A stretch of 20,990 bases of DNA from a virus. The stretch spans positions 1 to 20,990 of the IMG/VR virus record IMGVR_UViG_3300043419_000894; one strand, written 5' to 3'. This document shows positions 3,773-19,523 of the stretch, in pieces. Positions within the stretch are counted from its first letter, which is position 1. The number at the start of each line of letters is the position of its first letter. Under the pieces are notes generated by a model that was not told the origin of the DNA, did no database searches, and saw only the letters and a list, made by a program, of their open reading frames with translations. A program made the translations under genes and the position numbers.

Positions 3773-5590
3773 ATGTCACATTTATTAACATCTGGACAGG
3801 TTGGTAACATCGGATTAAACCACATGAAGGCTATCCGTAAAGAAACACAATCTAAATGGGATTCATTAGGATTCCTAGACGGTCTAAAAGGACACGTTAA
3901 AGAAAACATCGCTCAGTTGTATGAAAACCAAGCGTCTACATTATTAACTGAAAACACTACTACTAACTCTTCTGGTTCTTTCGAAACAGTTGTGTTCCCA
4001 ATTGTACGTAGAGTATTCTCTAAATTATTAGCTAATGATATCGTATCTGTACAAGCTATGAACATGCCAATCGGTAAATTGTTCTACTTCGTTCCAGTTA
4101 CTTCTCAACGTGTTGACGCTGCTGGTGCTGCTGGAAGCCCTTACGGTACTAACGGTACTTGGACTCCTCAATACTCTGCTCACACAGCTATGAACGGTGG
4201 TGTTCCATCTTGTATTAGTCAAACTAACTGTGCTGTTACAGCATTTGAAGGTAAAAACTTATACGATGCATTCTACAATGACGGTTTATTTGATAACTCA
4301 AAAGGTACTCTTACAATCGTTGCTGGTGGATACAACACTTACACATTAGGTACAACTGGTGCTTATTCTGTTGCAGCTCCTTCTGCTACATTGCCTACTG
4401 CTAATGATGGTTCATTAAGAGGTATCATTATCGGAATCACTGGATTCTCTCCAAGTGTACACGCTAAACAAGTTATGACTGGTGCTAACGGTGACCCAAT
4501 GGATACTGAATCATTCTTGGCTTCATTACACGTATTGACTTCAGCTCCAATCTTAGATAGAGATGGTAACGTTATCATCGCTACTGGAAAAGAAGTTCCT
4601 TTCCGTTTAGTAACTCAACAATATGGTAAAGGTATTGTAGACTATACATCATTAACTGATGCTACTGGTACTCTTTACGTAGAATTAGACTTACGTCACC
4701 CTGTTGGAACAACTGCTTCTGGAACTCTTACGTCTCCTGGAACATCTACTTACGATGGTTACGTTGGTGCTTCTGCATCTACTGTGTCTGCATTCACATT
4801 CACAACTGCATGGGCTGAATACGCTACATTAGAACTTGAAACTGAAATGGGAGAAGTATCTTTCAAATTAGACGAAGTTGTTGTTGCTGTTGAAGAAAGA
4901 AAATTACGTGCTACTTGGTCTCCAGAGCTTGCTCAAGACGTTAGTGCATTCCACAACATTGACGCAGAAGCTGAATTAACAGCTATGTTGTCAGAACAAG
5001 TTGCTGCTGAGATTGACCGTGAAATCCTTAGAGATATCCGTAAAGCTGCTGCATGGCAATTGAGATGGGATTACAATGGTTGGAGAAAAGCTGCAACATC
5101 TGCAAACCCATACACTCAAAAAGACTGGAACCAAACTTTAATCACTAGATTGAACCAAGTTTCTGCTCAAATCCACAAATCTACTCTTAGAGGTGGTGCT
5201 AACTTTATCGTAGTTTCTTCTGAAATCTCTGCTATCTTTGATGATTTAGAATACTTCCACGTAAGTGATGCTAACCCAGAGCAAGACCAATATAACATGG
5301 GTATCGAAAGAATCGGTTCATTATCTGGACGTTTCCAAGTATACAGAGACCCTTATGCACCAGCTTACTCAGTAATCATTGGTCACAAAGGTAAATCTTT
5401 ACTTGATACTGGTTATATCTACGCTCCATACGTGCCATTACAATTAACTCCAACGATGTACAATCCGTTCAACTTTGCTCCAGTTAAAGGTATCATGACA
5501 CGTTACGCTAAGAAAGTTGTTAACAACAGATTCTACGGTCACGTAAGAGTTGATGGTGTTCCAACATTTGATGTGAACGAATTAAGATAA
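3773..5590 (+). CDS. 23: Major capsid protein, T4 gp23-like
   Basis: This is the main shell subunit. Two regions align with T4 gp23 from memory. The first is the N-terminal block around LLTENTTTNSSG followed by VRRVFSKLLANDIVSVQAMN (matching the gp23 pattern of FLTE-A, MVRRAIP, FDICGVQPMN). The second is ELAQDVSAFHNIDAEAELT near residue 390, matching gp23 ELAQDLRAVHGMDADAELS. By this alignment the delta propeptide is residues 1-60, cut after Glu60 (L-T-E before Asn). At 605 residues it exceeds the 521 of T4 gp23. The extra length lies in a Gly/Thr/Ser/Ala-rich section of about residues 110-350, so an enlarged insertion domain is likely. An A-rich leader with no Shine-Dalgarno precedes the ATG. 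Codon use is regular, as expected of a highly expressed gene. Confidence 0.95.
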   Translation: MSHLLTSGQVGNIGLNHMKAIRKETQSKWDSLGFLDGLKGHVKENIAQLYENQASTLLTENTTTNSSGSFETVVFPIVRRVFSKLLANDIVSVQAMNMPIGKLFYFVPVTSQRVDAAGAAGSPYGTNGTWTPQYSAHTAMNGGVPSCISQTNCAVTAFEGKNLYDAFYNDGLFDNSKGTLTIVAGGYNTYTLGTTGAYSVAAPSATLPTANDGSLRGIIIGITGFSPSVHAKQVMTGANGDPMDTESFLASLHVLTSAPILDRDGNVIIATGKEVPFRLVTQQYGKGIVDYTSLTDATGTLYVELDLRHPVGTTASGTLTSPGTSTYDGYVGASASTVSAFTFTTAWAEYATLELETEMGEVSFKLDEVVVAVEERKLRATWSPELAQDVSAFHNIDAEAELTAMLSEQVAAEIDREILRDIRKAAAWQLRWDYNGWRKAATSANPYTQKDWNQTLITRLNQVSAQIHKSTLRGGANFIVVSSEISAIFDDLEYFHVSDANPEQDQYNMGIERIGSLSGRFQVYRDPYAPAYSVIIGHKGKSLLDTGYIYAPYVPLQLTPTMYNPFNFAPVKGIMTRYAKKVVNNRFYGHVRVDGVPTFDVNELR

Positions 5591-5649: not shown

Positions 5650-6150
5650 TTACTTTTCTTTTATCATTTTCTCCCACCAAGTTAGATTCTCATCTTCTTT
5701 GGTATATTCATCTAAATAAGTAATATCTAGTTCCCATTTATGTCGTGACCTTTTAAAGTATGTGTCAAAAGCACTTACTAAATAATCTTTAGCTTCATCT
5801 TCAGTTATTCCATTAACTTTCATTAATTGTTGTAATACAATTTCACTTTCACCATTTATTTGGGCTAAGCCTGGATGTTTTACTTTATGACAATTAGGAC
5901 ATAAGGAAATTAACCCTACAAGTTTTTGAATAAGAGTTTCATCGTTATAGTCCCAAATCTCGTGACACTCTACATTGTGGTTATAACCTTGGTTTTTCCC
6001 AGTATCACCACATATTTCACATTTATTGTCAGCGGCTTCATATGATTTTTTTCTTATAATATCCCATTCTTTTTTTGTAACGTTACTTCTAACGTTGCTG
6101 TACCAAGATGTCGATGGTACTATTTCCGATGTTAATTTGTAGTCTTTCAT
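5650..6150 (-). CDS. HNH endonuclease
   Basis: The 166-residue protein carries a clear zinc-supported HNH module: Cys44-x2-Cys47, the His63-Glu64 block (ECHEIWDY), then LCPNCHKVKH with Cys84, Cys87, His88 and His92. These are the metal and catalytic positions of the ECxxCG...HExW...CxxCHxxKH type often called phage HNH or McrA-like nucleases. The N-terminal 40 and C-terminal 65 residues have no recognised domain. Its ATG overlaps the stop of the upstream gene (ATGA), so it is translated with the PD-(D/E)XK-like partner. It could be a free-standing homing nuclease next to the capsid gene, or part of a two-nuclease exclusion cassette. Confidence 0.88.
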   Translation of the reverse strand: MKDYKLTSEIVPSTSWYSNVRSNVTKKEWDIIRKKSYEAADNKCEICGDTGKNQGYNHNVECHEIWDYNDETLIQKLVGLISLCPNCHKVKHPGLAQINGESEIVLQQLMKVNGITEDEAKDYLVSAFDTYFKRSRHKWELDITYLDEYTKEDENLTWWEKMIKEK

Positions 6151-6704
6151 ATTAATTTTATCAATTCTTCGTAATTTGAAAATGGTTTAACCTTATATAG
6201 ACCAGTAAATGCCGTTTTGGTACCTCTAGCTTTTAATGACGGGCTCAATATTTCGTCATCAGATTGGTATTTGTTTAAATCTTCTGGACTAGCAACACCT
6301 AGAATACAAAATTTTTCATCGTCTAATCTTATGATGATTATCTCTGGTTTTTCTGATTGTTTAAAAATTATTGGGTATTTTCCTAATTCAACGGTTTTGA
6401 TACCAATATTCAACCCAATACTGGATAAGTCTGGTACGTGGTAATCGTTTGAGTCCCCGACACTTAAATCGACAAATTCTTTACCAATATACTGACTTAA
6501 AGCCAATTCACCACCAGTGCCAGTTCGCCATCGTTTAGCTTCATTAAAAGAATCGACTACGTGGTGTGATTCATTTTTCTTTTTAACCATTACATTCTTT
6601 ACAAACTCATCAAGTCTTTTTGAATTGTTGTCAGTTAACGTAACTGTTCGTTCAGAGGAAATTAATGAATTTGTTAAGTATTTGTAAATTAATTTCGATA
6701 ACAT
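6147..6704 (-). CDS. Putative PD-(D/E)XK-like nuclease or restriction-like protein
   Basis: The ATG at 6704 is chosen over a TTG at 6707 because it overlaps the stop of a 42-aa gene (TGATG), giving 185 residues. A weak nuclease-fold pattern is visible: Glu66 in a Gly-rich helix start (TGTGGELALSQ), Pro91-Asp92 (HVPDLSSIGLN), then Gly-Ile-Lys103 (GIKTVE). In a true PD-(D/E)XK site the residue two before Lys is Asp or Glu; here it is Gly, so catalysis is uncertain. A metal ligand could come from Glu66 or Glu106. The hydrophobic EIIIIRLD strand after it is typical of the fold. The gene overlaps an HNH nuclease downstream, which supports a nuclease context. The family is not confidently recognised. 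Confidence 0.55.
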   Translation of the reverse strand: MLSKLIYKYLTNSLISSERTVTLTDNNSKRLDEFVKNVMVKKKNESHHVVDSFNEAKRWRTGTGGELALSQYIGKEFVDLSVGDSNDYHVPDLSSIGLNIGIKTVELGKYPIIFKQSEKPEIIIIRLDDEKFCILGVASPEDLNKYQSDDEILSPSLKARGTKTAFTGLYKVKPFSNYEELIKLI

Positions 6705-6832
6705 CAATCGTTTTCTGTAATAAAATTCTTAACCATTTCTCTAATGATTTGACCTAGTTGTTGGTCATTTGGAGTTGTTTCCACCAATTCGATTATATCT
6801 TGTAAGAATTCATTTGGGTTTTTATCTTCCAT
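6704..6832 (-). CDS. Small acidic protein (42 aa), first gene of the nuclease cassette
   Basis: The reading frame starts MEDKNPNEFLQDII and ends MVKNFITEND. It has 42 codons and its TGA overlaps the ATG of the next gene. A host-type promoter (-7 box at 6848-6855) ends 15 bases before its ATG. Position, overlap and codon use argue for a real gene despite its size. The product is acidic and helical with no recognised domain. Being first in a two-nuclease operon, it could be a regulator, partner or inhibitor of the nucleases, but this is only inference from order. Confidence 0.6.
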   Translation of the reverse strand: MEDKNPNEFLQDIIELVETTPNDQQLGQIIREMVKNFITEND

Positions 6833-6847
6833 GTTGATTATTTTCTA

Positions 6848-6878
6848 CAAATATACTAATTTAATTCTTAATTAGCAA
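6848..6878 (-). promoter_or_regulatory. Bacteroidota vegetative-type promoter for the nuclease cassette
   Basis: On the - strand, TTG (6878-6876) is followed after 20 bases by TATATTTG (6855-6848), the same elements and spacing as at 1117-1148. The box lies 15 bases before the 42-aa gene's ATG. It is in a 75-base divergent region shared with the + strand nuclease gene at 6908. Confidence 0.6.
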
Positions 6879-6907: not shown

Positions 6908-7555
6908 ATGAGAAAGTTAACGATAGTTTTAGCATTCATAATGGTTTCAATCACATCAATTGCTCAAACCATAACAACCGACAGTAATTTAATTATACCG
7001 CACGATGATATTACGTTATATTTGACAAAGGATACGTGTGTATTGGCATCAAAACATGTTATCACATATGCTGAGTTCCAAAAAATAGATAAAGAAAGAG
7101 ATAATAAATGGTTTCAAGATGTTTATAAAGGAAAATATACCAAGGATTCTTATTTAAAGACTGGGTATGATATTGGCCATTTAACCCCATCACATATTAC
7201 ATCGTATGATAACGTATTAAACCACAATTCTTTTAGTTTATTTAATGCCGCACCACAACTGGCTGCATTCAACAGAGGTAAATGGGCCCAAATGGAGGGT
7301 GGTGTTGAGGATACTATAGCCAAGTATAAGAAAGACGCAGTTATCATCACAGGAGTTGTCTATGACGGTAATAAGACTACATACATGGGTACATCAAAAA
7401 TTCCAATCCCAATGTCGTTCTTTAAAATTATTTATATCGATAAAAAAGTATTTTGTTGGATTGGTTCTAATGTAAATGGGTTGATTGCAACTACAACGGT
7501 TAAAGAATTAAATGAAATATTCAAATTAAACAAAATGACTTTAAAGATAGATTAA
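6908..7555 (+). CDS. Exported DNA/RNA non-specific endonuclease (NUC1 / Serratia nuclease family)
   Basis: The 215-residue protein begins with a typical signal peptide (MRKL, hydrophobic core, cut near ITSIAQ at residue 20), so it is probably exported to the periplasm or outside the cell. The beta-beta-alpha-metal nuclease core follows. YDIGHLTPSH holds the general-base His91; the usual DRGH is here DIGH, with Arg replaced by Ile. NAAPQLAAFNRGKWAQMEG supplies the Mg ligand Asn122 and Glu130 by analogy with Serratia nuclease N119 and E127. An AAAGGA ribosome site precedes the ATG and a strong terminator follows. The gene stands alone, divergent from the HNH cassette. It may degrade extracellular or incoming DNA, or scavenge nucleotides. 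Confidence 0.88.
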   Translation: MRKLTIVLAFIMVSITSIAQTITTDSNLIIPHDDITLYLTKDTCVLASKHVITYAEFQKIDKERDNKWFQDVYKGKYTKDSYLKTGYDIGHLTPSHITSYDNVLNHNSFSLFNAAPQLAAFNRGKWAQMEGGVEDTIAKYKKDAVIITGVVYDGNKTTYMGTSKIPIPMSFFKIIYIDKKVFCWIGSNVNGLIATTTVKELNEIFKLNKMTLKID

Positions 7556-7614: not shown

Positions 7615-8520
7615 TTAGGCTTTTGTACCACAGCTAGAACAAAATTTATGTCCTTTACCTAATTTAGTCCCACAGTTTGTGCAATAAACCTTAACGTTTA
7701 AATCTTCAACTGTGTTTATTTTTTGTGATACTGGAAGAAGTTTATATTCTACCGTATGGAAAGCAAAGTATTCAAAATCTTTGTTTACCGTTCTGAAAGT
7801 TTGGTCTGAGCTAGAACCTTGTTCAACTCTACCAGTTTCAATTGATTTTGAACGAACCATGCTACTAAGTGTTCTTAGTTTACTTTTTTTGATTGGTTCG
7901 GTTCTTTGTGAATATGTCACATCACTTGAATTAAATGAATCCATAGTCACACTAGAACTGTAAAGTGCTGTATTGCCAATTCCAGCTGATGTACTGGTAA
8001 AGGAAGCGTTTCCAGTCGTATTGGTGCTACCATTAATATTCTGAACATAACCACCAGTATTGGTTATCCAAGTTGGGTTACCAAATGAACCTCCGATACT
8101 TGTACTACTACCTTGAAGGGTTAGTGTTCCACCAAAGTATTGAGGAATTCTTTCTTTAAAGAACTCTACCTTGATATCACCATTGTTTTCGATTGCAGCT
8201 TTTACTTCCTCGGTATTGGCTACTTCGTAAGTATCAAATAAGAATTTTTTAGCCACGTCTAAGTAACGGTCTAAAAATACTCTTTGGCCAGGATTCAATA
8301 CCAGTCCACCTTGAGATAAAGCTTTATTGTTTAGTGTGATTTTCGCCAATACAACGTCTGTTGTTGGGTTAAAGATTTCAATTTGGAACTCTTGTCCGCT
8401 TTGAAGATAATAAGTCGGCATTTCGCCTTGTTTGTTGTAGACTTTGATTCTACTTTTGTTTACAGCAACGTTAGCCGTAGGAACCTTTTTGGATGGTTCC
8501 ATAATCATTTGTTTTTTCAT
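7615..8520 (-). CDS. Probable virion protein with C-terminal zinc ribbon
   Basis: I chose the ATG at 8520 (301 aa) because the bases before it form the A-rich leader typical of this genome; a TTG at 8586 would add 22 residues. Three parts are visible. The first is a beta-rich N-terminal domain containing NPGQRVFLDRYLDVAKKF and FDTYEV. The second is a low-complexity Gly/Ser/Thr/Asn region about 80 residues long. The third is a C-terminal zinc ribbon (YCTNCGTKLG and KFCSSCGTKA, a Cys-x2-Cys, ten residues, Cys-x2-Cys arrangement) ending at the last residue. The linker-rich architecture and its place beside tail genes suggest a structural or surface-exposed virion component. The zinc ribbon could mediate protein or nucleic-acid contact. 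The family is not firmly recognised. Confidence 0.7.
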   Translation of the reverse strand: MKKQMIMEPSKKVPTANVAVNKSRIKVYNKQGEMPTYYLQSGQEFQIEIFNPTTDVVLAKITLNNKALSQGGLVLNPGQRVFLDRYLDVAKKFLFDTYEVANTEEVKAAIENNGDIKVEFFKERIPQYFGGTLTLQGSSTSIGGSFGNPTWITNTGGYVQNINGSTNTTGNASFTSTSAGIGNTALYSSSVTMDSFNSSDVTYSQRTEPIKKSKLRTLSSMVRSKSIETGRVEQGSSSDQTFRTVNKDFEYFAFHTVEYKLLPVSQKINTVEDLNVKVYCTNCGTKLGKGHKFCSSCGTKA

Positions 8521-8600
8521 TTTATTTAACTTTTTAATTTTATTATTGTACCAATTTCTTTGTTGCCTTAACAACTCTAAAGTCAAATAAATGACTCGAA

Positions 8601-12029: not shown

Positions 12030-13450
12030 TATCCTAATCCTTTAATTATCCTAATCGCCTCTTGTGGTACACCTACTAGGCTTAACAATTGTACGACTTT
12101 ATTTTTAGCTTTATCTACTTGTTTTTTAATTTGAGCTTGTCCAACCAATTCAGCTATTCTTTTTAAAGCGATAGCTAATAATAATTTAATTATCATGGTT
12201 GTAATCTTTTTAATTATACTTTTAATTAACTGTTTGTTCTTTTTAATGAAGTCAACACCGTCAGTAAAGGTAGCGGTAGGTCCATATACAATTTTAAAGT
12301 TAATTAAAAATATCATAACAACTTTTGGTGATAAAATAACACCAACAATCGCTTTTATTAAAGTATTTACGATTAGTTGTATGAAGTTTAATTTAACACT
12401 TTGTTTGTCGGTTGGGTCTGTCGAATTTTTGGCGTTTTGATTTGCCATAGTATCCAAATTTGACGATAGAACGTCCTTCTTTTGCTGTACAGTTACAGCA
12501 GTACCCATTTCATTGTTAAAATTAGTTAGAAAGCCTTCTGGGACCGAACCGTTTATGTCTTTTGATGTTTTTAATTTTATTATCCCTCTCTTTCTATTAT
12601 CGGCTTGAGTTTGTATTGTTGAGATTTCATCGTTATCGAATGTAAAATAAGTGTCATCAACTGTTTCACTTGTTTCGGAATTTACTATCTTATCAACAAC
12701 TGCATTTATTTTACCCTCGGCTTCTAATTGTTTTCTGGTTTTTTTCAAGCTAAAAGAAATAGAACCAAAGATAGTGTCGATAATTTTATTAACTAAATTT
12801 GCTGTGTTGAACAATTTTAAACTATCAACAAAATTGTTGTTTAAGTCGTTCAGTGTTTTTGAATTGTAAGATGGGTTAGCTTTGATTATTAGACTATTAT
12901 TAGGGTTAACTCCAGTACCATCTAATGATACGAATGTTATATCTAAAATATTCTTCCATGTATATGTATTCCCATCACCTTGAATTACACCGTATAAAAA
13001 AGTATTGAAATCTGTTGAATCGGTGAGTACTGGGGTAACATCATCATATAATAATTTACCAGAAACACTATTTGGGTCCGTTTTTAATAAATCTAAAAAG
13101 TCTATTTTTTTAACTTCAATAACAATACCCGAACCACTTGTTTTAATAAAAGCTGGTAAACTAGGGTCAACGCCACAACTAACAATACTTTTTAATTCGG
13201 TTTTAAGTGCTTTTTTAATTTCAACCTCGATTTCCTCTATTGAGTGGGTTAGGATATCGACAACAGCTTTAACCAACGCAGCATACCCAATCAATGATTT
13301 GATTAGGTCGGTAAGGAAAGTAATACTATCACCTTTATTATTAACAGAAGGGAATGACGAACTTAACTTTAACTTAGGCATACCTTCAGTTAATGTTCTA
13401 GCGGCTGCAACCCCTCCAAAAACTTTTCTTTTTTTATCTAGTACAGACAT
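12029..13450 (-). CDS. Large probable baseplate/tail structural protein (473 aa)
   Basis: No clear family is recognised. The N-terminus is Lys-rich, followed by a hydrophobic helical stretch (FLTDLIKSLIGYAALVKAVVDIL). The middle (about 90-330) is mixed alpha/beta with Asp/Asn/Thr turns. The C-terminal third is strongly hydrophobic and helical, with LIVNTLIKAIVGVILSPKVV and IIKKITTMIIKLLLAIALK. These may be membrane-interacting or buried helices of a tail-tube or hub component. It lies in a tight operon (two bases from its upstream neighbour, overlapping its downstream one) leading to the gp5-like spike. A hub, tube-initiator or membrane-contacting protein is plausible. Its length is too short for a typical tape measure. 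Confidence 0.55.
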   Translation of the reverse strand: MSVLDKKRKVFGGVAAARTLTEGMPKLKLSSSFPSVNNKGDSITFLTDLIKSLIGYAALVKAVVDILTHSIEEIEVEIKKALKTELKSIVSCGVDPSLPAFIKTSGSGIVIEVKKIDFLDLLKTDPNSVSGKLLYDDVTPVLTDSTDFNTFLYGVIQGDGNTYTWKNILDITFVSLDGTGVNPNNSLIIKANPSYNSKTLNDLNNNFVDSLKLFNTANLVNKIIDTIFGSISFSLKKTRKQLEAEGKINAVVDKIVNSETSETVDDTYFTFDNDEISTIQTQADNRKRGIIKLKTSKDINGSVPEGFLTNFNNEMGTAVTVQQKKDVLSSNLDTMANQNAKNSTDPTDKQSVKLNFIQLIVNTLIKAIVGVILSPKVVMIFLINFKIVYGPTATFTDGVDFIKKNKQLIKSIIKKITTMIIKLLLAIALKRIAELVGQAQIKKQVDKAKNKVVQLLSLVGVPQEAIRIIKGLG

Positions 13451-13452
13451 TA

Positions 13453-13839
13453 TTATTCAGCTTCACTCTCTGTTTCGTTATTGTTATTTTTTAACATCTC
13501 TCTAATTGTTCTAAAGTCATTAAGAGAGGCAGAGCCATTGCTTCTTTCTGAAATTGCAGATTCAACATCACCACGATTTTTAATGATATCGCTTTGAAGT
13601 TTAGCTAATTCTAATTTAATTCTAATAGCCGAATCTTTAACCTTTAAAAGACCACCTTTTTCTTTGGCAATCTTAACTAAATCATCCACATCAGTTGCTG
13701 TTGCACTGGCTGCTAATTCATTGATGGTCTTTTGAGCATCATTGATTTGTAAACAAGCATCATTATAAGTTTCTTGCATAAGTCCTTCTAATGATTCGTT
13801 GTTGTTTACTTTTACGTCTTGTTTTCTTTTTCTAGGCAT
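13453..13839 (-). CDS. Small helical protein (128 aa), possible terminase small subunit or tail chaperone
   Basis: The N-terminus is very basic (MPRKRKQDVK). Three helices with heptad-like spacing follow (about 15-50, 55-85 and 70-100), then a Ser/Asn/Glu-rich acidic tail. The pattern of a basic start, helical hairpin (VKDSAIRIKLELAKLQSDII) and acidic end is compatible with T4-type small terminase proteins or tail-assembly chaperones. No decisive motif is present, so the function is left open. A TATTTATA box lies 14 bases before its ATG, making it the first gene of the tail transcription unit. It ends two bases before the 473-aa gene. Confidence 0.5.
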   Translation of the reverse strand: MPRKRKQDVKVNNNESLEGLMQETYNDACLQINDAQKTINELAASATATDVDDLVKIAKEKGGLLKVKDSAIRIKLELAKLQSDIIKNRGDVESAISERSNGSASLNDFRTIREMLKNNNNETESEAE

Positions 13840-13853
13840 AATTTCTATTTTAC

Positions 13854-13861
13854 TATAAATA
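13854..13861 (-). promoter_or_regulatory. Candidate phage late promoter box TATTTATA (tail operon)
   Basis: This is an exact box on the sense strand in the 51-base gap between the sigma-factor gene and the 128-aa gene, 14 bases before its ATG. It would start transcription of the tail genes independently of the sigma and glycosyltransferase genes upstream. Confidence 0.5.
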
Positions 13862-13890
13862 CCTGTCCATGCAGTTTTATTGTATTTTTT

Positions 13891-14619
13891 CTATAAACCA
13901 TGCACTTTTAAAAGCTCATACAGCTCTTTATATCGTTTCATAGCCAATCTAATATCTTTGGTTGATAGGTTGGTATAATTTCTCATGGTTTCTAATACAG
14001 AATTTTTATTGTATTTAGAACCACCATCCATTGATTCGAATGCTGTTTCCCAATTTTCTAAAATCTCAATTAAGGCAAACCCTACTTTTTTTTCATTATC
14101 GTTTAATTTCTTTTTGGGTGGTTGGTTTTCATCATTTAATTCTTCTTTGATACCATCGGATAACTTTTTAATAAAGTCGTCCATCATAAACCCATCATTA
14201 TCGATAACGTATGTTAAGTCAGCCCTTTCTTCGAGATTGCTTGACATGTCCTCATATGAAGCTGTTTGCTTCATATATTTTTCATCTTTGATTAATAACC
14301 CTAGAATATAATTCTTGGCTATTGTTCCAAAATACGAATAAGCTTTTTTGCCTCTCCCACTTTCAAATTTATGAACTTTGGTCATCAGAAAAGAAACGGT
14401 GTCACCATGAAGTTCTTCAAAAGTTTCACCCTTTCTATATAATTTGTATCTTCTGATTATAGATTCTATCATCTTGTCTAATGGGGCTTTTAGCCATTCA
14501 TTAAAGATTAAGTTTCTTTCTGCTTCACTTTCTGATTCTAGGAAATTAACAACTGCTTCTTCTTCATTTGGACCAAAGTACATATCATTCGTCCTTTTTC
14601 GTCCTCGTGTCGTAGCCAT
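13891..14619 (-). CDS. 55: Late RNA polymerase sigma factor, T4 gp55-like
   Basis: This divergent sigma factor is expected to direct host RNA polymerase to phage late promoters. The N-terminus has FGPNEEEAVVNFLE and FNEWLKAPLDKMIESII, typical of large T4-like phage sigma factors. The core is a sigma region 2-like block at about residues 55-110: YKLYRKGETFEELHGDTVSF, MTKVHKF, then KKAYSYFGTIAKNYILGLL, the part that contacts the -10 element. It is longer (242 aa) than T4 gp55 (185 aa), with a Lys/Asp/Glu-rich insert around 150-180. The C-terminal ~50 residues form a helical region (LSTKDIRLAMKRYKELYELL) that might be a remnant of sigma region 4. It sits four bases after the GT2 gene start-side neighbour and just upstream of a TATTTATA box. 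Confidence 0.82.
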   Translation of the reverse strand: MATTRGRKRTNDMYFGPNEEEAVVNFLESESEAERNLIFNEWLKAPLDKMIESIIRRYKLYRKGETFEELHGDTVSFLMTKVHKFESGRGKKAYSYFGTIAKNYILGLLIKDEKYMKQTASYEDMSSNLEERADLTYVIDNDGFMMDDFIKKLSDGIKEELNDENQPPKKKLNDNEKKVGFALIEILENWETAFESMDGGSKYNKNSVLETMRNYTNLSTKDIRLAMKRYKELYELLKVHGL

Positions 14620-14622
14620 TTA

Positions 14623-15417
14623 TTAGTTTTGAACTTCATAACTTATCTGTCTATCGTTTGGAAAATAGTACTCTTTTTTAGCTGTTGATAACCACCATCT
14701 AGCTTCAATCGGGTCAAGTGTTTCTTTGTAGTTTGAAAACAATGAACCTTCTCTTTGGTTGACGTGTTTATAACCAAATCTAGGGATAACCATTACTCTA
14801 ACATCTTTAAATGTCATACGTAATAAGAATTCGTAAATAAATGTTAATTTGATACTAGGTTTGAAACCTCCAAATTCATCATAAGTAGATTTCTTGATAA
14901 CCATACCATCGATATTAAAGTTTTGGTACGTCAATAATGCGTTGTTATCCAATACACCTAATTCATCTGAAAAACTATTAGCCCAAACAGCTTCGTTAGT
15001 AAATCCGATAAAGTTTCCAATTGAATCTACGTCAATAATAATTGGCATAAATAAATCAACATTAGTATGTTTGTTTTTGTATTCTACAACATTTTTAAAC
15101 CAAATTTTAGCGTATTCATCATCGAATTCTAAAATAGAGAACCATTCTGTTGTTGCTACGGAAACACCGTAATTAACTTGTGATGCGAAATCTGTTAAAC
15201 CATCGTTTTCTGCGATAACTACAGATTTTTTATAATCACCAAAATCAAATGCTTTGATGTATTTTTCCGTTTCACTACCTTTTGGTACAACGATAACTAA
15301 TTCGTCTGGTCTTACGGTTTGTTCTTTAACACTTTGAACAGCATTTGCGAACATTGGTTTTGTTACTTCGTTCAATTCATGAACTGGAAGGATTACTGAA
15401 ATATTTGTTTTTTCCAT
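14623..15417 (-). CDS. Family 2-type (GT-A) glycosyltransferase
   Basis: This is a nucleotide-sugar dependent glycosyltransferase of the GT2-like class. The N-terminus is the Rossmann-type ISVILPVHELNEVTKP. An acidic metal-binding motif sits in WFSILEFDDEY (Asp99-Asp100), followed by FNIDGMVIKKSTYDEFGG and the helical acceptor region FIYEFLLRM. There is no signal peptide or membrane helix, so it is cytoplasmic. At 264 residues it is about the length of a single catalytic domain. It is flanked by a GT-B glycosyltransferase (17 bases upstream) and the gp55-like sigma (four bases downstream), all in one apparent operon. Targets could be virion proteins or modified DNA bases; the sequence does not tell which. 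Confidence 0.82.
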   Translation of the reverse strand: MEKTNISVILPVHELNEVTKPMFANAVQSVKEQTVRPDELVIVVPKGSETEKYIKAFDFGDYKKSVVIAENDGLTDFASQVNYGVSVATTEWFSILEFDDEYAKIWFKNVVEYKNKHTNVDLFMPIIIDVDSIGNFIGFTNEAVWANSFSDELGVLDNNALLTYQNFNIDGMVIKKSTYDEFGGFKPSIKLTFIYEFLLRMTFKDVRVMVIPRFGYKHVNQREGSLFSNYKETLDPIEARWWLSTAKKEYYFPNDRQISYEVQN

Positions 15418-15433
15418 TTTTCTCTTTGTTTAA

Positions 15434-16582
15434 TTAAGCGTTAGATTTTTGTGTTTTAGCTTCTTCTAATTTAGCTAATGTGTTTTTAAGTTCTACAATT
15501 CTGTTTTCTGTTAAACTACCGTACACGTTAGTAACCGCTTCTAATTGTTTTTCAGTTGTATACAAACCTTGACTAGCTTTGATACCTTCTGTTAAATCAT
15601 TTGGTACTGCGTCCTCTAACCAAACTTTTAAATAAGTTGCGATTAATTCTGGGATGTTCATAGTTGTGTTGGTCCAAACCCCATTATTTTTAATAACCAT
15701 GTTTCCTTCTTCATCAGTTGTTTCCATCCATTCTGGGATAAGGTTTGGCATTTTACCGATTACGGTTGTGTTAGATTCAATAGCTTCCAATGGGAATGTA
15801 CCGAAACCAGATGTGTCGTCAATCCAAACAGCTAAACAAGCTTTACTTAATTCAGTTGCGAATTGCGGTCTAGATAAACCTCTCAATTCTTTGAAAGTAA
15901 TCCATTTGTAGATTGGGTATTGTAAGTAGAATGATTTTGCGATTTTAGCAGCGTCACCTTGGTTTCTAGTGTGGATAGCCACAACTGGGATTTTAGGTTT
16001 GTCACTGTCTTTGAAATAGCTAGGAATAGCTACTGGCACAATGTGTGTGTTGATTGATGGGAAAAGAGTTTTCAAGTAGTTAGCTTGTTTCTCACTTGTG
16101 GTGATTACATCATTAAATCCGTAATCTGTATTCCATCTTTTACCAATTGGTAATAATTCTAATAAGTAATCATAGCTTTGAGATAAAACCACTTTTTTAC
16201 ATGGGAAAGCTTTTACTTGGTCCATGATGTTAGAGAAAATCTCTGGGATGATAATAAAGTCAGCTGGACTGATATTAAGTTGTTGTCCTTCGATAGACAC
16301 GTGCGGTAATGCAGCGTATTCTTCACCTAACCAATCAGCAATTCCGTTTCCGTTTTCATCACCTTTAAGTCTATAATCGTTTTTTTCATGAAGGATAGCA
16401 GCGTTGTATCCTAATTCGTTAAGCATTTTTACGTGTTCGTAAATGTTAGCGATACCAGCGGTTGGGTTACCTTTGGTGTCTAAAGTAAAAAAGTATAAAG
16501 TAAAAGCTTTTTTCTCTAGGTTTTCAATAACACCTGTAACTTGGGTAATTTGTTCTGCAATTTGTTTTTCTTGTTCTTCCAT
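15434..16582 (-). CDS. GT-B (GT4-like) glycosyltransferase
   Basis: The 382-residue protein has the two-domain GT-B layout. The N-terminal half has GNPTAGIANIYEHVKMLNEL followed by GYNAAILHE, the usual start of GT4 proteins (a Gly loop, then a helix and a strand). The C-terminal half contains the donor-binding block DDTSGFGTFPLEAIESN (Glu266, Glu269) with VIGKMPNLIPEW after it. A short Gln/Glu-rich coil (residues 1-25) precedes the catalytic fold and a Lys/Glu-rich helix ends it, possibly for partner contact. It is cytoplasmic by sequence. It lies in the same run as a GT2-like enzyme and sigma factor. Donor and acceptor are unknown. Confidence 0.78.
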   Translation of the reverse strand: MEEQEKQIAEQITQVTGVIENLEKKAFTLYFFTLDTKGNPTAGIANIYEHVKMLNELGYNAAILHEKNDYRLKGDENGNGIADWLGEEYAALPHVSIEGQQLNISPADFIIIPEIFSNIMDQVKAFPCKKVVLSQSYDYLLELLPIGKRWNTDYGFNDVITTSEKQANYLKTLFPSINTHIVPVAIPSYFKDSDKPKIPVVAIHTRNQGDAAKIAKSFYLQYPIYKWITFKELRGLSRPQFATELSKACLAVWIDDTSGFGTFPLEAIESNTTVIGKMPNLIPEWMETTDEEGNMVIKNNGVWTNTTMNIPELIATYLKVWLEDAVPNDLTEGIKASQGLYTTEKQLEAVTNVYGSLTENRIVELKNTLAKLEEAKTQKSNA

Positions 16583-16609
16583 TTTTGTTTTGTTTGTCGG
16601 ATTATTATT

Positions 16610-16966
16610 TTATATTTCTTTTAGAATACCATATTCCATTAAGGTATTGAATGCTATTCTATATGATAAAGGTCTTTTTTCTAAGGCTCTATCTGGACCT
16701 AATGCATCATCGTCATCTTCATTAACATCGTCTAATAGTACGTCTATTAATGTTCTAATCAACTCATATTTTGTTGAGTCAATGTCAGCCCCTCGTTCTC
16801 GTTTTGTTTCTAATAATTCAGTGCTAATAACTTTACCTTTTTCATCGGTAGTGGTTTTAGTCACACTATCAACAACCATTTCTTTAGGGTCGTAATTATT
16901 TAATTTAATTGTGTTACCATATGCCTCTAGGTCGATATGGTAGATAGTACCTCCAAATTCAATCAT
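16610..16966 (-). CDS. Unknown acidic protein (118 aa)
   Basis: The ATG is three bases after the preceding stop, so it is co-translated with the HAD-like gene. The start MIEFGGTIYHIDLEAYG looks like a beta strand pair. The middle is charged (TTTDEKGKVISTELLETKRE). A helix with a run of Asp (LLDDVNEDDDDALG) follows, ending with a helical SYRIAFNTLMEYGILKEI. No metal site, signal peptide or catalytic motif is recognised. Its operon contains PhoH, a HAD-like protein and glycosyltransferases. I do not recognise the family and assign no role. Confidence 0.6.
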   Translation of the reverse strand: MIEFGGTIYHIDLEAYGNTIKLNNYDPKEMVVDSVTKTTTDEKGKVISTELLETKRERGADIDSTKYELIRTLIDVLLDDVNEDDDDALGPDRALEKRPLSYRIAFNTLMEYGILKEI

Positions 16967-16969
16967 AGT

Positions 16970-17572
16970 TTAAAGTTCTTCGTAAGTTGTTATTGTTGTG
17001 TTTAAAATCCTATTTCTAAGTTCTTCATCTTTAATAAAATCTAAGATTGATTCTATTTCATAGTCAGCTACAACGTCTTTGTTGTAAGACGCTTTAACCT
17101 TTACACTAATTTTACCAGAAGGTTTAGATTCTAGTGCGATAGGGTTGGCTGTAACTAATACGTCAACATCACCCCATTCTTCAGAGTTTTGTTTAACAAA
17201 TCTAACTCTGTCGATTCGGCAACTGGTTTTTGATAGGAAAAAATAAGTGGATGGAATACTTTTGTCGATTTCACGGCTAACAAGTTCTACTTGATGTTCA
17301 CCGTCATCTTTCATATCCATAATAAAGTTATTGAATTGGTTCATTAAACCATCAGACATCTGGTCGGCATGACCGAAAATTTCTAGAGGGGCTTCTAAAT
17401 ATAGAAACGAGTTAAGTTTGTTGATGTCCTCAAACTTAAAAAATTCGATTAAATTGAAGTTGGTGACATCATCTTCTTTGATATCTGTCTCTGCGATATA
17501 TTTATCGTAGGTGTAGGCCAACTGTCCAATAAAATCTCTTAAAACCTCATTAATGCTTATTCCTATTTTCAT
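16970..17572 (-). CDS. HAD-like protein with degenerate catalytic motif (5'-nucleotidase-type fold)
   Basis: The start MKIGISINEVLRDFIGQL has the shape of the deoxyribonucleotidase-type HAD motif I (KxGxDxDEVL). The two essential Asp positions are replaced by Ser6 and Asn8, so phosphatase activity is unlikely. A cap-like helical middle follows. Then come YFFLSKTSCRIDRVRFV (motif II-like region with Ser) and WGDVDVLVTANPIALESKP, the usual late strand and loop where HAD proteins carry motif IV acidic residues. Total length (200 aa) fits a nucleotidase-type HAD. It is the first gene after PhoH, 49 bases on, and just ahead of the 118-aa gene. A binding, scaffolding or regulatory role is more likely than catalysis. 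Confidence in the fold is moderate. Confidence 0.55.
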   Translation of the reverse strand: MKIGISINEVLRDFIGQLAYTYDKYIAETDIKEDDVTNFNLIEFFKFEDINKLNSFLYLEAPLEIFGHADQMSDGLMNQFNNFIMDMKDDGEHQVELVSREIDKSIPSTYFFLSKTSCRIDRVRFVKQNSEEWGDVDVLVTANPIALESKPSGKISVKVKASYNKDVVADYEIESILDFIKDEELRNRILNTTITTYEEL

Positions 17573-17621: not shown

Positions 17622-18482
17622 TTACCTAAATAAATCTAAAAATTTTTTAAAAAATGATTTTCTTTTTTCTTTTTTTGTTATAATAACTTTAGGTTCTGAT
17701 TTCTTTTTATAATCCTTGTGTTCAAATATTTGTATAAAATATTTTGTAAGTCTGTGTCTAACAACTTCGTCCTCGGTAAATTCGACAATGTTTACACCTT
17801 CTTCTGGGTGTAGCTTGGCCATTCTTGTTAACTCAAATAAACAACTAGTTTCTGGGTTTTTTAAATCCACTTGGTTACTATCACCTAACGCAATTACTTT
17901 TGTGTTTTCTGAGAATCTGGTAAGAAGTGTTTTTCCGTTGTTATCGGTAACGTTTTGAAACTCATCAAAAAGGATGATACAGTTTGATAAAGACCTACCA
18001 CGAATGGAACCAAATACTTCCATTTTAATATAACCAGCTTCTAATAATCTATTAGTTAGTTCTTCACCTATAAGTTTGTAGAAAGCGTCAAAGAATGACA
18101 TCATAATAAATTTTAATTTATCTTTTTCATCACCTGGTAATGTACCTAAATCTTCGTCTTTAAGTTGTACGATTGATTTAACTAATTTTATTTCGTGGTA
18201 TTTGTCTGGATTGTTTTTTAATAGCAGTAATGCTTCGGCAACACTAAGAAGTGTTTTACCAGTTCCAGCTGGGCCTGTACATATTGTTACGTCACCAGCC
18301 TTGATTGAGTGGGTGAGTTTTTTTTGTACTTCGTTCTTATGTTTAATATCAATTTTGATTTGCGATAACAAATCAAATATAACTTTTTGCTGTGGTACAG
18401 CTGGGTTAGTTTCTGTTTTTTTTGCTCTACTTCTTGTTGTAGTTGTAGGTGTTTTTGGTGTAGTCGAAACTTTTCTAGGCAT
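17622..18482 (-). CDS. phoH: PhoH-like ATPase
   Basis: This is a P-loop ATPase of the PhoH family, common in phages with unsettled function (suggested links to RNA metabolism). Walker A is CTGPAGTGKTLLS (Lys76). The PhoH-specific ELVKSIV-like loop is KLVKSIVQLKDEDLGTLPGD. Walker B is NCIILFDEFQNVT (Asp173, Glu174), and the sensor strand is KVIALGDSNQVDL. The N-terminal ~28 residues form a Thr/Pro/Lys-rich, disordered tail, and the C-terminus is very Lys-rich. At 286 residues it is of ordinary single-domain length. A TATTTATA box lies 15 bases before the ATG, so it may head a long operon running to the sigma factor. Confidence 0.9.
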   Translation of the reverse strand: MPRKVSTTPKTPTTTTRSRAKKTETNPAVPQQKVIFDLLSQIKIDIKHKNEVQKKLTHSIKAGDVTICTGPAGTGKTLLSVAEALLLLKNNPDKYHEIKLVKSIVQLKDEDLGTLPGDEKDKLKFIMMSFFDAFYKLIGEELTNRLLEAGYIKMEVFGSIRGRSLSNCIILFDEFQNVTDNNGKTLLTRFSENTKVIALGDSNQVDLKNPETSCLFELTRMAKLHPEEGVNIVEFTEDEVVRHRLTKYFIQIFEHKDYKKKSEPKVIITKKEKRKSFFKKFLDLFR

Positions 18483-18497
18483 AAGCTTTGTTTTTAT

Positions 18498-18505
18498 TAT
18501 AAATA
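18498..18505 (-). promoter_or_regulatory. Candidate phage late promoter box TATTTATA (PhoH operon)
   Basis: This is an exact box on the sense strand, 15 bases before the PhoH ATG. It starts two bases after the 3' arm of the hairpin at 18508-18535, so termination of the sugar cassette and new initiation are adjacent. Confidence 0.5.
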
Positions 18506-18507
18506 TA

Positions 18508-18535
18508 AATGTCCTAGCGAAAACACTAGGACATT
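18508..18535. terminator. Hairpin between sugar cassette and PhoH operon
   Basis: A perfect ten-base-pair stem (AATGTCCTAG with CTAGGACATT) has an eight-base loop, 14 bases after the GDP-mannose dehydratase stop. The - strand side is followed by TATATTTATAA, not a clean T-run, so termination may be partial. On the + strand TTTT continues from the stem. Confidence 0.55.
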
Positions 18536-18548
18536 TTAATAATTATAT

Positions 18549-19523
18549 TTATTTTTTTAATTTGGTCATCCAACCATCAATCATATCATCCATTAAGGTT
18601 TCAAATGTGTATTCTGGTTTCCACCCTAGTGTTTCTCTGATTTTAGTCGAATCGCCTTTCAAATATTTCAATTCTTCAGCTCTAAGAAACTTGCCGTCTT
18701 GTGAAACATATTGTGTGTAATCCATGTCTAATTTTTTGAAAACATATTCGACCATTTCTCTAACCGAGTGCGTTGTCATTGTTGATACAACGAAATCGTC
18801 TGGTGTGTCGTGGTTGATAATCAAGTGCATAGCCTTAACATAGTCTTTTGAATGACCCCAATCTCTATAAGAATCCATATTCCCTAAAACTAATTTATCT
18901 GTTAACCCTAATTTGATTTCAACAGCTGTTTTTACAACTTTGTTGGTTACAAAGTTAGATGCTCTTCTAGGTGATTCGTGATTAAAAAGAATACCATTAC
19001 ATGTGTGTAATTTATAGGCGTTTCTATAGTTTCTAACAATGTTATACCCAAACACTTTAGAGCAACCGTAAGGACTTACTGGGTTCATTTGTGTTGTTTC
19101 TCTTTGGAAACAATCAGCGTCTACTGAATTACCAAACATCTCAGAAGAACTTGCTTGGTAAAATCTAGCTGTTGGACATGAGCGTCTATAGGCTTCTAAG
19201 ATATTTAAGATACCGATTGCATTTGTTTGCACTGTAAACTGTGGGATATCGAAACTAATTCTAACATGGCTTTGTGCTGCAAGATTGTAGATTTCATCTG
19301 GTTGAATTTCATCTAATAATTTTTCTAAACCACCTTGGTCTAATAAATCACCGTAATGAATATTAACTTTGTTTCTTACCTCATCCGAAAATCTACTTTG
19401 TTGTGACTCAACACTAGAGTTTCTTCTTATAATTCCATGGACCTCGTAACCTAATTCTAATAGGTATTCTGCTAAATATGAACCATCTTGTCCGTTGATT
19501 CCTGTGATAAACGCTTTTTTCAT
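18549..19523 (-). CDS. gmd: GDP-mannose 4,6-dehydratase
   Basis: This enzyme converts GDP-D-mannose to GDP-4-keto-6-deoxy-D-mannose, the branch point for GDP-fucose, GDP-rhamnose, GDP-colitose and GDP-perosamine. It is a short-chain dehydratase. NADP binding is by TGINGQDGSYLAEYLLELGY (residues 7-26) followed by RRNSS. The catalytic site has SSSEMFG (Ser126/127, Glu128) and SPYGCSKVFGYN (Tyr152, Lys156). The diagnostic NHESPRR block is at 181-187 and LGNMDSYRDWGHSKDYVKAM near 213-232. At 324 residues it is a little shorter than cellular enzymes (about 340-375) but all key blocks are present. It is last in the cassette GT10 / aminotransferase / gmd, and its product is the expected substrate of the neighbouring aminotransferase. 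Confidence 0.95.
   Translation of the reverse strand: MKKAFITGINGQDGSYLAEYLLELGYEVHGIIRRNSSVESQQSRFSDEVRNKVNIHYGDLLDQGGLEKLLDEIQPDEIYNLAAQSHVRISFDIPQFTVQTNAIGILNILEAYRRSCPTARFYQASSSEMFGNSVDADCFQRETTQMNPVSPYGCSKVFGYNIVRNYRNAYKLHTCNGILFNHESPRRASNFVTNKVVKTAVEIKLGLTDKLVLGNMDSYRDWGHSKDYVKAMHLIINHDTPDDFVVSTMTTHSVREMVEYVFKKLDMDYTQYVSQDGKFLRAEELKYLKGDSTKIRETLGWKPEYTFETLMDDMIDGWMTKLKK

Follow-up and report, generated by a model that had tools for sequence, protein, structure and literature searches.

Three overlapping genes beside the capsid gene of a T4-like phage are probably a chance succession in a variable locus

Introduction

Stop-to-start overlap with an upstream gene is a known trait of the free-standing homing endonucleases of phage T4, five ORFs of which overlap the ORF upstream, with the nrdA/mobE junction reading UAAUGA (PMC2988022). 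HNH proteins of the family phrog_5200, found in Seunavirus PVPSE1, rV5-like phages and other myoviruses, likewise often overlap the gene preceding them. A third body of comparison is the PD-(D/E)XK superfamily, in which migration of active-site residues has been documented for the lysine of motif III (PMC1913061).

Here we analyse a stretch of 20,990 nucleotides (positions 1 to 20,990 of IMG/VR record IMGVR_UViG_3300043419_000894, hereafter the window), in which three minus-strand ORFs run convergently towards a gp23-type capsid gene: a gene for a 42-aa protein, a middle gene (MID, 185 aa) and an HNH gene (166 aa). The HNH protein belongs to the same family as the phrog_5200 proteins and has their zinc-finger and HNH residues and their habit of overlapping the preceding gene, but differs in where it is inserted, namely behind MID and next to gp23, and in residing in a Bacteroidetes-type phage. 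As with T4 MobE, a free-standing HNH homing endonuclease whose start overlaps the nrdA stop (PMC2988022), its start overlaps the stop of MID; the likeness is one of gene arrangement, by analogy with which the window HNH may also home.

The window and its three-gene array

The window belongs to a T4-like myovirus of Bacteroidetes-type bacteria. It has profile matches to a prohead protease (PF03420) and a gp23-type capsid protein (PF07068), and its gp23 reaches 37% against that of a relative, Flavobacterium phage vB_FspM_immuto. The original prediction of three genes overlapping stop-to-start beside the capsid gene, under a single host-type promoter and bounded by a terminator, holds in each of these points (Table 1). 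The 42-aa stop and MID start share TGATG and the MID stop and HNH start share ATGA; MID begins with ATG, and a TTG 3 nt upstream is likewise open. Ahead of the array lies a predicted TTG-N20-TATATTTG element, which we take to be the Bacteroidetes -33/-7 promoter form. The same type of element with identical 20-nt spacing is conserved upstream of the 42-aa/MID genes in nine of ten relatives checked, which argues against a chance match, while a generic sigma-70 scan is uninformative at this locus (11 found, 11.6 expected). The terminator stem-loop reaches z -6.7 on the plus and -4.5 on the minus strand.

Table 1. Coordinates of features in the window and in related contigs
Sequence	Feature	Position	Strand	Basis or remark
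Window	gp23-type major capsid protein gene	3773..5590	+	PF07068, E 2.6e-72; convergent neighbour
Window	Terminator stem-loop	5612..5639		12-bp stem; between convergent HNH and capsid genes
Window	HNH endonuclease, 166 aa, probable free-standing homing endonuclease	5650..6150	-	phrog_5200
Window	MID, 185 aa, predicted restriction-endonuclease-like fold	6147..6704	-	Alignment, AF2; motif III GIK, not (D/E)XK
Window	42-aa acidic protein, PNDxxLGxxIR small family	6704..6832	-	Relatives at other loci
Window	Predicted Bacteroidetes-type promoter	6848..6878	-	Sequence; ahead of three-gene array
Window	Endonuclease_NS nuclease, signal-peptide-like N-terminus	6908..7555	+	PF01223, E 2.2e-27; divergent neighbour
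Window	Conserved gene with C-terminal zinc ribbon	7615-8586	-	Zn_Ribbon_1, E 1.1e-6
Window	Leader-tag carrier	9001-8663	-	N-terminal pattern
L092	Leader-tag carrier	6393-5941	-	N-terminal pattern
L085	Leader-tag carrier	18322-18870		N-terminal pattern
L093	Leader-tag carrier	13256-17468		N-terminal pattern
L094	Leader-tag carrier	7184-5910	-	N-terminal pattern
L069, L072, L074	Leader-tag carriers			N-terminal pattern

Divergent from the array is a third nuclease gene, of the Endonuclease_NS family, which the original prediction had left unmentioned. It is present in the closest relative, L003, and in L070–L074, and was not found in L001, L067 or L069.

The capsid gene shows a lower synonymous divergence from L003 (0.28) than its neighbours (0.46–1.31), with a minimum at the gene ends and a maximum at residues 120–340. 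Either codon bias or recombination could account for this.

Separate occurrence of the three genes in relatives

MID lies beside gp23 in 12 related contigs (L001/L002, L040–L042, L067 and L069–L074), about ten of which are distinct, and the HNH gene of the window is adjacent to it in none of them. Where the contig reaches far enough, MID is found between the zinc-ribbon gene and gp23. Two of these contigs, L070 and L071, have an empty HNH site: directly after the MID stop codon comes CGCAAAAAAGTCTAACCTTTCGATTAGACTTTTTT, which corresponds to the terminator located behind HNH in the window. The opposite combination occurs in L003 (gp23 86%, HNH 91%), where MID is absent and the 42-aa gene is joined straight to HNH with the overlap TAGTG. 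About 30 further contigs likewise have an HNH relative in a neighbourhood that lacks MID, and on the L001 contig an HNH relative is located about 39 kb from MID. Relatives thus largely carry the genes separately, with HNH kin at many unrelated sites, an outcome that the original prediction itself had named as evidence against a unit.

Since the three genes come and go separately, the array appears to be an ordinary pile-up of accessory genes rather than a two-nuclease weapon. We hold it very probable that it represents a chance succession in a variable locus, with MID a resident, HNH a separate and probably homing insertion, and the 42-aa gene independent of both. The locus would comprise a variable accessory stretch extending from the capsid gene to the conserved zinc-ribbon gene, which marks its far edge. 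MID would be the resident, an accessory gene read from a host-type promoter of its own, a feature that suggests early expression. HNH would have entered at the precise junction of the MID stop codon with the terminator, where it could be produced by translational coupling from the transcript of the resident gene. By analogy with free-standing T4-type enzymes, HNH would propagate itself by cleaving homologous sites that are still vacant in relatives infecting the same cell. The 42-aa gene would be a third, independent small gene, placed before or after MID and often present without it. The simplest history, in its probable order, would start from an ancestral 42-aa/MID pair, behind which HNH was acquired by the common ancestor of the window and L003, followed by loss of MID in L003.

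The empty site and the swapped neighbours illustrate how a compact, operon-like phage array can be built up through successive insertions and losses, and warn against taking stop-start overlap as the mark of a functional unit. Such overlap is no evidence for a cassette, as it is a documented habit of the free-standing T4 homing endonucleases (PMC2988022).

Across L001, L067, L069, L072 and L074, the stretch from MID to gp23 is hypervariable. It holds a UDP-glucose-epimerase-like ORF in L067, a different HNH-like ORF and an acetyltransferase-like ORF in L069, and related ORFs of 73–74 aa in L072 and L001.

The middle protein and its predicted fold

Sequence comparison placed MID in no family: searches of Pfam, PHROGs, NCBIfam, PADLOC and PDB sequences returned only chance-level or single-member matches, and tblastn with the MID of the window found no match in 50,697 phage records. 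None of 30 pattern matches in GTDB contigs was confirmed as a relative, in a scan that reaches fairly close relatives only. Weak matches of the SPN3US type to the L001 MID were rejected after profile comparison since the aligned stretch is devoid of the motif.

Structure prediction was more informative, and it is here that the PD-(D/E)XK-like fold proposed for the middle protein finds its support. An AF2 model built on a 12-row alignment (the window and 11 relatives, some near-identical) reached pLDDT 87.1 and pTM 0.85, against pLDDT 35 with a two-row alignment. Foldseek comparison of the model with the PDB remained below significance (best E 0.77, NhoI). VIA-align placed NhoI, Eco15I, DpnI and PvuII on top (Z 4.6–6.2), followed by Hjc and then a SPARDA nuclease; the top 16 matches, from Z 6.2 to 4.1, all have or contain the restriction-endonuclease-like fold, and the first unrelated match follows at Z 3.9, every Z being under 8. 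The superfamily members NhoI, Eco15I, DpnI, PvuII and Hjc share the order of core helix and strands with MID (Z 4.5–6.2 over 100–131 residues), and D92 and K103 fall in motif-like positions. Among the viral models of BFVD, Foldseek matched 15 phage proteins at E below 0.001 and, slightly more weakly, A0A6J5NRJ2, which is named Restriction endonuclease. These uncharacterised phage proteins (including A0A6J7WYC6) resemble MID in overall fold (E 1e-5 to 2e-3, probability 1.0, TM 0.52–0.65) but share only 10–17% identity with it. We conclude that the fold is likely PD-(D/E)XK-like. MID may represent a restriction-endonuclease-like family that has not been described before and whose active site is degenerate, which would add a well-predicted family invisible to sequence profiles.

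MID differs from the superfamily in its want of sequence similarity and in a glycine that replaces the acid of motif III, as had been read from the window. The motif is D92-x8-G101-I-K103, and E66 belongs to the first core helix. Because the glycine is fixed, with motif III reading G-I/V-K in all 12 aligned sequences, the canonical (D/E/Q)XK form is absent throughout. This glycine is what makes it plausible, though we lean slightly away from it, that MID is a catalytically dead nuclease fold retained as a DNA-binding or inhibitor protein. Against such a loss of activity, motif II D92, motif III K103 and helix-1 E66 are invariant at their sequence positions, as are 59 positions overall in the 12 sequences. 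Moreover, E106 or E121 could substitute for the lost acid, given that active-site residues migrate in the superfamily (PMC1913061, in the case of the lysine). The gene evolves under purifying selection (dN/dS about 0.1). On the model, MID is best described as an accessory protein of nuclease-like fold that may be either active or dead. The suggestion that the glycine makes MID dependent on its HNH partner is contradicted, since every HNH-free MID has the same glycine.

A more far-reaching proposal, which we regard as unlikely, is that MID founds an undescribed nuclease-like family, expressed early and with a relocated acid, that acts on host or competitor DNA, and that the locus below gp23 is an arms-race hotspot. 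If true, the locus downstream of gp23 would be a hotspot of turnover for nucleases and virion-delivered proteins.

The MID of L069 (2106–2609) has lost its normal C-terminus and ends in ...ATNITKTTCY. It is possibly a copy in decay, and its locus contains an HNH-like gene distinct from that of the window.

The HNH gene as a probable homing endonuclease

The assignment of the third gene to the HNH nucleases is borne out by a full-length match to phrog_5200 (E 2e-55; residues 4–155 against 3–149 of the 154 profile positions) and by the zinc cysteines C44, C47, C84 and C87 together with H63, H88 and H92, none of which varies across an alignment of 35 sequences. Relatives were found in 241 phage records and at 34 IMG/VR loci, and several carry annotation as homing endonucleases. 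The neighbouring genes vary, with DNA polymerase III alpha, T4-type RNA ligase, HTH and other genes standing ahead of the HNH relatives and a phrog_13596 gene among the further neighbours, and in Seunavirus PVPSE1 the relative is placed behind a different gene. Their ORFs, with mechanically called starts, often overlap the end of the preceding gene by 1–35 nt. We posit that HNH is probably a free-standing homing endonuclease by analogy with described systems, firstly because occupied and empty alleles exist at one site, and secondly because the family is scattered over unrelated sites.

The gene could also have been domesticated, no longer homing and instead serving phage DNA processing or host DNA breakdown. 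Its synonymous divergence between the window and L003 (1.31) is similar to that of some vertically inherited neighbours (1.14 for the neighbouring nuclease, 1.12 for a 467-aa gene), and thus it appears to be an old resident of this lineage, which fits vertical inheritance since the common ancestor. Strong purifying selection over the same comparison (dN/dS 0.04) would likewise suit a gene that benefits the phage. We nevertheless consider domestication improbable, as HNH is missing at this locus in all other close relatives, and both the scattering of the family and the pair of occupied and empty alleles, the latter a prediction of homing, count against it.

Two arrangements of HNH relatives elsewhere were recorded. 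In L009, L011, L014, L019 and L021 the relative immediately follows a gene for DNA polymerase III alpha, with a 14-nt overlap in four of the five, and in L024 a 31% relative of the Endonuclease_NS nuclease adjoins the HNH gene.

The 42-aa gene and the proposed joint function of the array

An alignment-based search for the 42-aa family (PNDxxLGxxIR) retrieved relatives in L003, L041, L042, L067 and L069. The gene stands together with MID at five loci, ahead of it and overlapping in the window, L067 and L069, and after it in L041 and L042. This proximity would be expected if the 42-aa protein and MID formed a pair of the toxin-antitoxin-like or nuclease-inhibitor type, HNH being a bystander. We consider such a pair very improbable, however, as a toxin should never occur without its antitoxin neighbour and the 42-aa gene is absent beside MID at five loci (L001, L070, L071, L072 and L074). 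Conversely, L003 has a member of the 42-aa family but no MID, and 18 other loci have one with neither MID nor HNH.

Least credible of all is the original prediction of one functional cassette, in which a 42-aa leader, MID and HNH would jointly keep out other phages or break down the DNA of the host, HNH completing MID: the common promoter, double stop-start overlap, terminator boundary and purifying selection on both nuclease-like genes speak for it, but it is largely refuted by the retention of MID, glycine included, without this HNH in 12 contigs, of HNH without MID in about 30 contig neighbourhoods and of the 42-aa and HNH genes without MID in L003, and no defence system was matched in PADLOC, a library of known systems, at E up to 1.

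N-terminal leaders in the same phages

The amphipathic N-terminus of MID raised the option of a capsid-targeted protein, which was rejected as the family has no consistent protease site.

Separately, leaders like M..(I/F)(K/R)K(L/I)LRE (M..IKK(L/I)LRE) are found at the start of unrelated ORFs in these phages. Across the window and the contigs of two relatives the pattern stands at seven N-termini, and it has no internal occurrence in the 51,149 aa of the two contigs. Among the carriers is an ART-PolyVal ADP-ribosyltransferase (E 2.6e-10), recalling T4 Alt, which is both an internal head protein and an ADP-ribosyltransferase (PMC9026906). Internal proteins of T4 carry a capsid-targeting sequence that is cut off by gp21, with a cleavage logo fitting LIE (PMC9026906), and SPN3US gp53/54 begin MANFVKSKLARESVE (PMC5694885). 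By analogy with T4 and SPN3US, the leader may be the capsid-targeting sequence of this clade, with a prohead-protease site.
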